A stretch of 64,000 bases of DNA from Planctomycetota bacterium (lineage in GTDB: Bacteria; Planctomycetota; Planctomycetia; Pirellulales; Pirellulaceae), in NCBI GenBank assembly GCA_014238905.1, contig JABAAE010000002.1:186001-250000 (forward strand), written 5' to 3'. Under the pieces are notes generated by a model. That model did not search any database, had not been told where the DNA came from, and was given only the letters and a program-made list of their open reading frames with translations. Of this stretch, positions 17,266-20,975 are shown piece after piece. Position 1 is the first letter of the stretch. The number at the start of each line of letters is the position of its first letter. Both the position numbers and the translations under genes were made by a program.

Positions 17266-18162
17266 ATGCTTGATATCTATTTGGGAATTGCAATCATGAT
17301 TGTCGTTTCCAGCCTATTTAATTCTTTCACCCTGATCATAGTCTCCAGATTCCGAAGACGGATCGCCGATTTTTTTGCCATTTTGGCGATGTTCGGCATG
17401 ATCATCTACATTGCATTCCTTTGGGACAAGGCTGAAATCACCTGGTTTGTTCCCTATTCCAATGCCATCATTGTTGGAAATTGGTTTCCCATTGTTACCG
17501 CCGTTCTAAGCGCACTTGTTTATCATCGAATTCGACAAAAAGGAATTCGAAAATACGCTCCCGTTATCGTTTTGAACCTTGTTGGAATTTACGCCATGCT
17601 CCATCCGATCATCGGTGACACACCGATTTGCGAAAACAAGGTGGATGAATTTGGTGACGCTCTCCAATCCTCTCAGTACACCTGTTCGCCGACCAGCGGT
17701 GTCAACCTGCTGAAGTGTTATTCGATACCCTCTACCGAATCTGAAATGGCTACCCTATGCCTGACAAAAAAGTCACGTCAGTGGTTGGGGTTCGCTGTTT
17801 CTGAGGGAGGAACCTCATGGATGGGGCTTTATCGCGGCCTATTATTAAAATTACGTGGCACAAGATGGAAGGCGGTTTTCCTTTCCGAGTCATTCGACGA
17901 ATTTGCAGCCACCCCACGCTCGCCTCTTATTATCAGCCTAAAGCTGCCCAGGGAACTTGCCAAAACCGATCCTGATCGATATCACATTCTCCGTGAAGAA
18001 GGCTGGCAGCCCGGCTTGGAGCACAATGTTCTCTTTCGGGGTTTTTCAGAAAACCGAAACTCTGCATTCATTACCGACCCAAAGATCGGTCAGGATGAAA
18101 TCCAAATGAATGATTTCCGGTCGCTTTGGGTCGGCCGCGGCATGTCAATCGAAGACAAATAG
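17266..18162 (+). CDS. Membrane-anchored C39-like cysteine peptidase (predicted)
   Basis: The first 115 residues contain about four hydrophobic segments with short basic loops. The soluble C-terminal part shows the layout of a papain-fold C39-like peptidase: Gln137 and Cys140 in SSQYTCSPTSG, His253 in LEHNVLFRGF, Asp271 in FITDPKIG, then DFRSLWVGRGM, which matches the family's final F..lW.G segment. C39 peptidases normally cleave double-glycine leaders inside ABC exporters. This one has no ABC domains and no exporter gene nearby. Assignment rests on motif order, not a profile search. The protein could act on the periplasmic or cytoplasmic face. Confidence 0.6.
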   Translation: MLDIYLGIAIMIVVSSLFNSFTLIIVSRFRRRIADFFAILAMFGMIIYIAFLWDKAEITWFVPYSNAIIVGNWFPIVTAVLSALVYHRIRQKGIRKYAPVIVLNLVGIYAMLHPIIGDTPICENKVDEFGDALQSSQYTCSPTSGVNLLKCYSIPSTESEMATLCLTKKSRQWLGFAVSEGGTSWMGLYRGLLLKLRGTRWKAVFLSESFDEFAATPRSPLIISLKLPRELAKTDPDRYHILREEGWQPGLEHNVLFRGFSENRNSAFITDPKIGQDEIQMNDFRSLWVGRGMSIEDK

Positions 18163-18284: not shown

Positions 18285-19751
18285 CTACCTTCGATTCTTC
18301 ATTCTCTGTTCGATTCGCTCCGCTTCAAAACGATCGATCGCGTTGTCACGGTTTCGATCACCAATCCGTAGGAGGGGCATCAACCGGCTGGGAATTTCTT
18401 TTGCCGAGACTTTGCCATCTTGATCGGTATCATTTTCCATAAAAACCGAAGCGGAAAAAACGCGATTTTTCGCGTCCCTGCCGCCGCCAATGGATGGCCT
18501 TTCAGGCCGTTTTCCAGGCCATTTCCCTGTCCCCCCTTGTCTCCCAAATTGGCCAGCACTTCCACGTCTGGCCGATCCCCCATCTCGATCCGACTCAAGA
18601 TTGATGACGTATTGCTGCGTCACCGGTTTACACCATCCCTCCACATCGCTGCAGGCAAAATACTTGACCGTCAATTGAAAACTGGTTTTCGAGGATAACC
18701 CCTTCCCTTCCACTAGAAATTCCCGAGGATCGACATCGGCTTCCTGCTTGACCTTGGTGGCTGCCCCCTTTAATGCGTCCAGTTTTCCAGATGTCAATTC
18801 GCTGATTGAATAATTCAACGGCTCGGCAAGGTTGTTCCAGTGTACTCGGTGTATAGGATCCAAATGAAAACCGAGGTAGACTTTTCCCGTCCCTCCGTTC
18901 AACACAGCCGGCTCCGCCTCCACACGTAACTTGACATAAAACGGTGCAGAACTGTCTAACGGTTTGACCTTGAGAACCCGCATTTGCGAAGGCACATCGA
19001 TTCGCTCCACAATGTTTTTGCGAATCCTAACTGGATCGGGTTCCTTCTTCAAATTCAAATCTGCGGATCGCGTCTTAGTTTTTGGCACCCCAACCAACTT
19101 TTCCAAGTCATCTCGTAGTGTCTCAGGACGACTCCAATCCTGCATGGAGACGATTTTCCCATCGGGGCTAATGATAAACTCGGAATTGGGGCGATCACCC
19201 AATGCATGTTTAAGTTCATTTTCCATGTTGTCACAAAGCCACGGAATAGTATTACCCAATTGTCTGTAAGCCAATTCGATGTGTTTCAAACGTTCAGACA
19301 GACTGACAGGTCTAACATAGCCTTGGCTACCACCTTCAGGATGAGCTAGCGATTTGTAAACAAAAAAGAACCTGACGCCCATGGGAGCAAAGTCCGCTTT
19401 CACTGCCTCCAGACCGGAGACATTTCGGATAAATGGTGGTCAGGTCAGACAGCCAAAGGTCAACACGGTATACCCATCGTGGGATTCACCCATAACGAAT
19501 GGTTTACCTCGATCATCAAAAATCTTGACGCTTGGCATTTTCATGCCAACTTTTAACCCTTTACGGCTCAACGCAGTTGAGCCTTGTGATTCAGGGCCCC
19601 GGCCACTCCGGAAACGGTTCGACCTTCGGCCATCTTGTTTGCCGGAGGACGAATCAATGCTTCGTTCTGGCTGTCCCCATAACGTTTCCGAAACAAACCC
19701 ATGTACAAAAACCAGAACAACAAGACTAAACAATGTTGTAAAATGTTTCAT
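18285..19751 (-). CDS. Deiodinase-like selenoprotein with C-terminal EF-hands (in-frame TGA = Sec104)
   Basis: I read this as one 488-aa gene with a TGA (19442-19440) decoded as selenocysteine. Both sides are in the same frame with no other stop. The start is supported by GGAGG 7 nt before the ATG, and a signal peptide follows (LFSLVVLVFVHGF). Residues 73-230 align with the iodothyronine-deiodinase branch of the thioredoxin fold: TVLTFGCLT-U-PPF, FFFVYKSLAHPEGG, PWLCDNMENELKHALG, FIISPDGKIV. In this family Sec or Cys occupies exactly this position. A mid domain has an unknown role. Two EF-hand loops follow, at 441-452 (DTDQDGKVSAKE) and 465-476 (DRNRDNAIDRFE). It is probably a periplasmic Ca-binding redox enzyme. 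The substrate is unknown, and iodinated compounds are only one possibility. Confidence 0.88.
19404..19442 (-). promoter_or_regulatory. Bacterial SECIS element immediately after the Sec UGA
   Basis: Reading the minus strand, TGA (19442-19440) is followed by 17 nt, then a 7-bp stem TGTCTCC (19422-19416) / GGAGGCA (19410-19404) with one T-G wobble. It closes the 5-nt loop GGTCT (19415-19411). The loop starts 24 nt after the TGA. The loop is the same GGUCU that SelB reads in the E. coli fdhF SECIS, and the spacing falls in the usual bacterial range. All of it is inside the coding sequence, as expected in bacteria. Confidence 0.85.
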
Positions 19752-19858
19752 TTCTTTTCCTCCGGTGTATCTGGAAAACTGGAACGGAAATCCATGCCGT
19801 CCAGTCGTCTCCGTCTCATTGCCATTCGACGCCCCAGTCCTTCCAACCGCCTGGACTT

Positions 19859-20938
19859 TTAACGCCAGAGATAAGCAGCATCTGACACATATCTGGCAGC
19901 AGTGTCATTGGAAATCAATCCCGATGTCAGCAGTCTTTTGATAGATTCATCGAGTGAAATCATCCCAGCTTTTGCTCCTGTTTGAATATTGTTGTCTAAC
20001 GATTCCAGTTTCCCTTGACGAATCGCACTGGCAACCGGCGAGTTATTGAACAAGATTTCGATGGCCAACTCTCGTTTTGAATTTGGCAAAATGCTGGGTA
20101 GTAAGTGCTGGCTAACGACAGCTCGTAGACTCAGAGCTAACTGAGCCCGTATCTCATTCTGCATACTACCATCAAACAAGTCTGCATAACGTGAAATTGC
20201 ACCCTTGGCATCCCGAGTATGCAACGTCGAAAGTACAAGATGTCCAGTCTCCGCTGCACTTAAGGCAATCTGTGCGGTTTCCTGATCCCGAATTTCACCC
20301 ACCAAAATGACGTCCGGATCTTGTCGCAAGCCATATTTCAGCCCATCAGCAAATGAGTCAATGTCTTTTCCGACTTCTCGTTGCGTAATGACGGTCGACT
20401 GCTCCACACCGCTAACGTCAAAAAGATATTCAATCGGTTCCTCGATCGTAATGATCCGATAACCTCCCATTGCAATGAGAGTTTTAATCAACATGGCCAA
20501 AGAGGTTGTTTTGCCAGAACCTGCCACACCTGAAAAAAGGATCAAACCGTTACGAAATCGAGTCAGTTGATCGGCTAAATCCTGCGGAAAATTGGCCCAT
20601 GAGTAATTGGGCACCTTGGATGGTATCACACGAAAACAGGCCCCCATCTGATTTCCAGCAAAAAAATAGTTTGCCCTGAACCGCAACATGTTGCCGTCGT
20701 CTTCAATCTCTAATGCAAAGTCGAGATTGCGTTCAGAAAAAAAACGGTCTCGGAAATCGGCTGGACAGTAATCCATCAATTTTTCCTGGATCAACGCGGC
20801 ATCCAATTCTTCGTAATTCAATGGCTGCAAACCACCATGTTTACGAACTACTGGTGGCGATCCAGACACCACATGAAGATCCGACGCACCCTCGTTCACC
20901 GCCGCAATTAACCAGTCCTTCAAATTCGATTCCGCCAT
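19859..20938 (-). CDS. pilT: PilT-type twitching/retraction ATPase
   Basis: A GspE/PilT-family hexameric ATPase of 359 aa from the chosen ATG. It shows the PilT N-terminal SDLHVVSGSPPVVR, Walker A GVAGSGKTTSLA, the Asp box TIEEPIEYLF, Walker B DVILVGEIRDQETAQ, the His box STLHTRDAKGA, and near the C-terminus AGMISLDESIKRLL. PilT retracts type IV pili at the inner membrane. No pilin or pilus assembly genes are adjacent. Upstream in-frame codons extend to a TTG at 20968 but lie inside a 16-bp tandem duplication, so the ATG at 20938 is preferred. PilT versus a paralogue (PilU-like) cannot be settled here. Confidence 0.9.
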   Translation of the reverse strand: MAESNLKDWLIAAVNEGASDLHVVSGSPPVVRKHGGLQPLNYEELDAALIQEKLMDYCPADFRDRFFSERNLDFALEIEDDGNMLRFRANYFFAGNQMGACFRVIPSKVPNYSWANFPQDLADQLTRFRNGLILFSGVAGSGKTTSLAMLIKTLIAMGGYRIITIEEPIEYLFDVSGVEQSTVITQREVGKDIDSFADGLKYGLRQDPDVILVGEIRDQETAQIALSAAETGHLVLSTLHTRDAKGAISRYADLFDGSMQNEIRAQLALSLRAVVSQHLLPSILPNSKRELAIEILFNNSPVASAIRQGKLESLDNNIQTGAKAGMISLDESIKRLLTSGLISNDTAARYVSDAAYLWR

Positions 20939-20975
20939 TGCCCGTTTCTCAAATTGCCCGTTTCTCAAATTGCCC
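20938..20975. repeat. 16-bp tandem duplication at the pilT start
   Basis: Two identical units of TTGCCCGTTTCTCAAA (20938-20953 and 20954-20969) plus six bases of a third overlap the pilT initiation region on the minus strand. The duplication repeats the sequence just upstream of the ATG and could vary the distance between promoter or ribosome site and the start. Confidence 0.85.

Follow-up and report, generated by a model that had tools for sequence, protein, structure and literature searches.

A planctomycete gene split by an in-frame TGA very likely encodes a selenoprotein with a deiodinase-like CxxU domain, a DsbD_N-like domain and EF-hands

Are two adjacent open reading frames (ORFs) in a planctomycete genome two genes, or a single gene read through a UGA? 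The question is raised by a 64,000-nucleotide stretch of a Planctomycetota bacterium of the Pirellulaceae (assembly GCA_014238905.1, contig JABAAE010000002.1, positions 186,001 to 250,000), hereafter the window, whose own coordinates we use. A first-pass annotation of these letters had proposed a deiodinase-like selenoprotein hidden on the minus strand. We find that this is very likely a split selenoprotein gene, the two ORFs giving one protein of 488 residues. The frame running from the ATG at 19751 to the TAG at 18285 is interrupted solely by the TGA at 19440-19442, which is residue 104 of the joined frame. The ORF finder output consists of two pieces, 19440-19751(-) and 18285-19403(-), with 12 sense codons between the TGA and the GTG start that it chose. 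Translation bears out the common frame, the lone TGA and the 12 codons that had been claimed, and the segments GCLT-x-PPFIRN, VYKSLAHPEGG, PWLCDNMENEL and SPDGKIV are present as described. The announced ribosome site precedes the first half, and the expectation that gene callers would yield truncated pieces holds beyond the ORF finder: the protein database record of this gene (P0002) is a 365-residue piece beginning downstream of the TGA. The start of the protein is similar in many relatives (first 40 residues compared).

18285..19751, minus strand: complete selenoprotein gene, 488 residues if UGA is read as selenocysteine (Sec), with TAG at 18285-18287 (sequence, and alignment over codon 104 in 45 homologous loci).
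19759..19763, minus strand: ribosome-binding site GGAGG, 7 nucleotides upstream of the ATG (sequence).
19671..19751, minus strand: predicted signal peptide, about residues 1-27 (hydrophobic stretch behind a Lys, judged by eye).
19440..19442, minus strand: predicted Sec codon 104, the in-frame TGA (sequence and homologous loci).

The genome has the means to decode such a codon. All four components that the annotation had named for a search are present: a tRNA-Sec of 73.4 bits (cut-off 47) with anticodon tca, SelB (407 bits), SelA (581) and SelD (265), each above its cut-off. We examined 47 homologous loci and aligned 45 across the site, after removing L011, which shares its contig with L050, and L063 from genome G005, whose best match falls short of the site. 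Codon 104 is TGA in 37 of these 45 loci and a cysteine codon in the other eight (TGT in six, TGC in two); TAA and TAG never occur. The proposed comparison of Sec and Cys homologues came out positive. In L063 the site could be located by its motif and is also TGA, with the frame shifting further downstream. Fourteen weaker relatives were fetched, of which six could not be aligned over the site, and the remaining eight all have TGA. Where the 37 TGA loci differ from one another, the change is mostly at a third codon position, both before the TGA (67% for codons -12 to -1) and after it (53% for codons +1 to +29), hence both sides are under coding selection.

The codon also travels with its tRNA. 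Among 147 genomes searched, our own included, 33 have a strong match carrying TGA, placed at exactly codon 104 in 32 of them and by motif in G005; two Verrucomicrobiales records add to these. With tRNA-Sec counted only above the family cut-off, at E <= 1e-9 and under strict filters, 31 of the 33 TGA genomes have it against 42 of the 114 others (Fisher test, p 1.5e-9, not corrected for kinship), and none of the seven genomes having only a Cys copy does. The two TGA genomes without a tRNA-Sec match, G006 and G014, are drafts of about 400 and 440 contigs; the tRNA is present in two other members of the same two genera, G071 and G077. In a tree of 73 rows, rooted for drawing only and for which the program warns of long branches, the Sec and Cys states need three changes: one branch (support 99/99) contains all 39 Sec rows together with two Cys groups, of five rows and one row, and excludes the remaining Cys rows.

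How would the ribosome tell this UGA from a stop? Just past the codon lies a candidate selenocysteine insertion sequence (SECIS).

19404..19422, minus strand: predicted bacterial SECIS hairpin, starting 17 nucleotides past the UGA (codon identity, covariation and recoding test).
19411-19415, minus strand: hairpin loop GGTCT, 24 nucleotides past the UGA (sequence).

The hairpin can form seven pairs and has the loop RGTYT, which is GGTCT in the window gene. The loop of the E. coli fdhF SECIS is similar. Bacterial SECIS elements are described as hairpins just 3' of the UGA with a small apical loop containing G (PMC1088965), and the window hairpin has this position and this kind of loop. Synonymous codon identity is 1.00 at codons +8 and +9 in all comparable pairs of TGA loci, where 0.25 and 0.20 are expected. 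The amino acids at these codons vary between Pro and Ser and between Ser and Gly, and the base pattern YCC-RGT stays constant as the protein changes. The core CC-RGTYT-GG occurs in 37 of 37 TGA loci, against a mean of 0.9 and a maximum of 6 in 5000 synonymous recodings, and 6.08 of the seven positions are paired, against 4.27 (standard deviation 0.17) after recoding. The eight Cys homologues have different loops and two to three of the seven pairs. In the hairpin alignment (36 rows, L030 being removed as identical to L029 over the stretch), the covariation score is 0.289 against 0.172 in shuffled data, with none of 500 shuffles as high; in 20 cells both partners have changed with the pair kept, against 6.6 when shuffled, and sliding the partner strands lowers pairing from 87% to 31-60%. 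Some results weigh against this picture. The bulk minimum free energy is ordinary and does not single out the hairpin, RNAalifold finds just five weak pairs, Rfam gives no gathering-level match over the window, with two chance-level matches near the TGA, and two covariation counts are no higher than in shuffles. On the folding check suggested by the annotation, the codon-level and covariation tests single out the hairpin, which is weak by bulk folding energy and RNAalifold. From the conservation and the presence of the machinery, we take it as nearly certain that Sec insertion at this UGA is directed by the hairpin, which would recruit SelB and the Sec-tRNA.

What protein is then made? The selenium site lies in the first of the domains following the signal peptide.

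19086..19574, minus strand: thioredoxin-fold, deiodinase/peroxiredoxin-like domain, residues 60-222.
19440..19451, minus strand: active-site motif C-L-T-U (CxxU), residues 101-104 (alignment of 45 loci).

Cys101 is invariant in the 45 loci. By structure comparison this thioredoxin fold is nearest to iodothyronine deiodinases (Dio), Dio2 and Dio3 having the highest Z scores; they are also the best PDB sequence matches, albeit weak (E 0.0077 for Dio2, 0.0038 for Dio3). Folds of the peroxiredoxin (Prx) and ResA types are near behind Dio by Z, and level with or above it by Foldseek, and the Redoxin and AhpC profiles match the domain weakly. The deiodinase profiles themselves give 19.8 bits for PF00837 (curated cut-off 27) and 38.5 bits for NF038285 (curated cut-off 250). 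The deiodinase insertion loop is present in six comparison rows, and all eight family rows fall 10-12 residues short of these; the remaining two comparison rows, L086 and L089, are likewise short. The relay residues of Dio2 are given as Ser 127, Thr 129, Tyr 157, Glu 160 and His 162 (PMC11592359). Aligned with Dio, the window protein keeps three of them (Thr103, Tyr132 and His137) and replaces the Ser by Cys101 and the Glu by Leu135. The position of Dio2 His 182 is Pro in the family rows and His, Gln or Pro in the comparison rows. The term deiodinase-like is hence right as to the fold and the T-U-P-P-F and AHP motifs, but goes too far otherwise: the protein misses both cut-offs, has neither the insertion loop nor the relay Glu, and bears a CxxU site. 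We considered filing the protein in the deiodinase family proper and rejected this on the missed cut-offs and the short loop.

Beyond the selenium domain comes a second module with a cysteine pair of its own.

18588..18980, minus strand: beta-sandwich DsbD_N-like domain, residues 258-388 (model, profile in relatives, fold).
18651..18653, minus strand: Cys367, first Cys of an invariant pair (45 of 45 loci).
18630..18632, minus strand: Cys374, second Cys of the pair (45 of 45 loci).

A separate model of residues 246-400 has a pLDDT of 91.3. The DsbD_N profile PF11412 matches 34 of the 54 members scanned at E <= 0.1 (best 1.4e-6), though the window protein's own piece has no match. In fold comparison the best matches of this middle domain are tied, the N-terminal domain of DsbD (nDsbD) among them, at Z scores of little weight alone. 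Both cysteines are also invariant in an alignment of 66 rows. In the model, Cys367 closes the strand 357-367 and Cys374 opens the strand 374-387, which places the pair across a hairpin; in nDsbD, an Ig-type beta sandwich, two cysteines are described as facing each other in the same way (PMC7347389). Against PDB sequences the middle domain gave chance matches only, the best 60 of 331 matches of the 66-row profile were mostly EF-hand proteins, and hhalign found nothing between the middle-domain alignment and the genome's DsbD. A DsbD_TM search finds a single DsbD in the genome, carrying its own DsbD_N match.

L099:352-2739 (G000:C88:47788-50172), plus strand: the genome's DsbD (DsbD_TM search).

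This DsbD has an in-frame TGA that would give U-A-T-C (UxxC) in its C-terminal thioredoxin domain, and the DsbD of the nearest relatives (G001, G041 and G033) have one TGA each somewhere inside the match. The window protein ends in two EF-hand loops.

18396..18431, minus strand: EF-hand loop 1, DTDQDGKVSAKE, residues 441-452 (sequence, PF13202).
18324..18359, minus strand: EF-hand loop 2, DRNRDNAIDRFE, residues 465-476 (sequence).

Both fit the 12-residue pattern D-x-D/N-x-D-G/N with Glu at position 12, and D469 is nearly invariant in the 66-row alignment. PF13202 gives 20.5 bits in the window protein, under the cut-off of 25.9; EF-hand profiles match 46 of the 54 members scanned at E <= 0.1 and exceed the cut-off in relatives such as P0030. 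The number and place of EF-hands differ among the relatives whose sequences were compared.

Together these parts might form a selenium-dependent thiol reductase that is exported and brings along a domain for its own recharging. Once the UGA has been decoded, the predicted signal peptide would export the protein. The substrate that Sec104 would then attack is most likely a peroxide or disulfide, and Cys101 would resolve the oxidised selenium as a Cys-Sec bond, as the invariant CxxU suggests. Cys367 and Cys374 might in turn reduce this bond and be re-reduced by the membrane DsbD. We give the chemistry, from substrate attack to re-reduction exactly as written here, about an even chance. The EF-hands may bind calcium, probably for stability or placement. 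The overall reading, a UGA-decoded, 488-residue exported thiol (selenol) reductase recharged by a fused DsbD_N-like domain, we hold to be probable. One might go further and speculate, with little confidence, on a periplasmic selenium electron relay from the UxxC DsbD through the built-in DsbD_N module to the deiodinase-derived CxxU selenoenzyme. If such a relay exists, the domain for docking and recharging would be built into the enzyme itself, which we found for no selenoprotein in the searched literature.

Other explanations must be set against this one. The gene might be broken, its TGA being a true stop or a miscalled TGC or TGT, and the species is indeed represented by one draft assembly only. 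Yet many genera have the identical TGA, which stands in 36 other loci and in two records labelled Verrucomicrobiales, and it comes with a conserved hairpin and with co-occurring tRNA-Sec. On the conserved TGA and the hairpin we rejected pseudogene and sequencing error, which seem extremely improbable. The protein might instead be a selenoprotein of a plainer kind, a one-domain Prx-like peroxidase whose C-terminal domains place or stabilise it and stay outside the electron flow. This would agree with the weak Redoxin/AhpC matches, with the Prx and ResA-type folds scoring near, level with or ahead of Dio, and with the varying number and place of EF-hands. But neither alignment shows any variation in the middle domain's Cys pair, which passive placement leaves unexplained, and we regard such a peroxidase as rather unlikely.

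The active-site domain itself suggests a further alternative, a bacterial reductive dehalogenase or deiodinase in which Sec104 takes iodine or bromine off aromatic compounds, as in animal Dio. Dio2 and Dio3 lead both the structural Z scores and the weak PDB sequence matches, and Thr-Sec-Pro-Pro-Phe, the relay Tyr and His-Pro are retained. Against this, the protein scores below both deiodinase cut-offs, it has Leu for the relay Glu and Cys for the relay Ser, and, compared with canonical bacterial forms, it lacks 10-12 residues of the insertion loop, which in Dio lies beside the active site and helps to recognise the substrate. We find this activity doubtful, and prefer the thiol reductase.

How much of this architecture is new? 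Bacterial deiodinase-like selenoproteins had been called established knowledge by the annotation, and they have indeed been in print since 2005 (PMC1088965) and again in 2008 (PMC2398784). Those of PF00837 and NF038285 share with the window protein the Sec in a T-U-(P/G)-P-F thioredoxin-fold site and the AHP motif. They differ from it in having SxTU rather than CxxU, a longer insertion loop and a GPxGF-like end motif, and the window protein adds the DsbD_N-like domain and has its EF-hands C-terminal. The suggestion that the long C-terminal extension may be new stands only in part: a deiodinase-like/EF-hand fusion from Global Ocean Sampling (GOS) data was published in 2021 (PMC9402790), so novelty is limited to the DsbD_N-like domain together with CxxU. 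The same source describes, also from GOS data, a separate fusion of a Prx-like (U/CxxC) domain with PF11412. Each of these fusions thus has two of the window protein's parts, reported as two separate proteins; the second is described with U/CxxC where the window family has CxxU, and either fusion might belong to this family. A 2026 review lists a 'Deiodinase-like protein, PF00837, UxxC' (PMC13188914), and was the only match for deiodinase with DsbD in the searched literature. Planctomycete selenoproteins in general are treated in PMC4807772, whose main text has no deiodinase. Searching 'deiodinase-like' with 'Planctomyc' returned no paper, most subscription papers lying outside the coverage, and deiodinase, selenoprotein, bacteria and planctomycete together returned one match, on Archaeplastida. 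The tripartite subfamily of CxxU domain, DsbD_N-like domain and EF-hands was not found in the literature searched.

Known systems outside this group resemble single parts. Animal Dio1-3 (4tr3, 9h48) are, unlike the window protein, membrane enzymes with a substrate loop and the relay Glu, and the resolving Cys is at -2 in Dio1 and Dio3 (PMC9141512) but at -3 here. With nDsbD the middle domain shares the Cys pair across a hairpin and probably the Ig-type sandwich (PMC7347389), and PF11412 matches many relatives. The window module differs in being joined to a Sec reductase instead of the DsbD membrane domain, and in its spacing, CxxxxxxC. The C-terminal half of DipZ is attached to a membrane domain. 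It was the first Foldseek match (2hyx, 5cyy), extending from the thioredoxin domain partway into the following one, but the two-domain superposition is poor (root-mean-square deviation about 13) and the entries as titled have no Sec.

The genome also holds a second gene with an in-frame TGA.

L100:1198-2664 (match G000:C7:192549-193091), minus strand: a true deiodinase-family selenoprotein (NF038285).

It scores 369 bits with NF038285 (cut-off 250), has the motif GSFTUGPF and, like the window protein, carries EF-hands in the same chain, in this case N-terminal to the catalytic domain. L086 and L089 form a further deiodinase-related Sec group, with GGYTUPPFRR, QKEPH and the short insertion loop. 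Among Cys forms, P0054 is fused to an esterase (BD-FAE) and P0075 has a second, deiodinase-type domain in one chain. SelD lies within a 735-residue frame (L018:1393-3600(-)) with the site CLGCGGK, and the N-terminal half looks NADH dehydrogenase-like by eye; NADH dehydrogenase-SelD is a known fusion type (PMC2398784). Around the window gene, the convergent neighbour at 17266-18162(+) has 298 residues and no Pfam match at E 0.001. The same-strand upstream gene at 19859-20968(-), about 108 nucleotides off, encodes a secretion/pilus-type ATPase (PF00437), absent from the recurring neighbours listed for compared relatives. When the window was compared with 18 relative loci from 17 genomes, mostly over 16 kb each, at most five of them shared any one neighbour, so synteny offers no operon argument.

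In a draw across the phylum, four of 392 genomes, our own included, have the family at E 1e-30, with TGA in two of the other three; the family is thus concentrated near the source's own family and order. The phages searched for it gave no match. In 93 of the 120 best database matches listed, the motif pattern finds the active-site segment missing, which contig ends may explain in some cases, and the family's catalytic half seems to be dropped in gene prediction. A deiodinase-type fold with CxxU and without the substrate loop offers a testable case for how deiodinases and bacterial reductases are related, and the naturally paired Sec and Cys copies lend themselves to the question of why selenium is retained.
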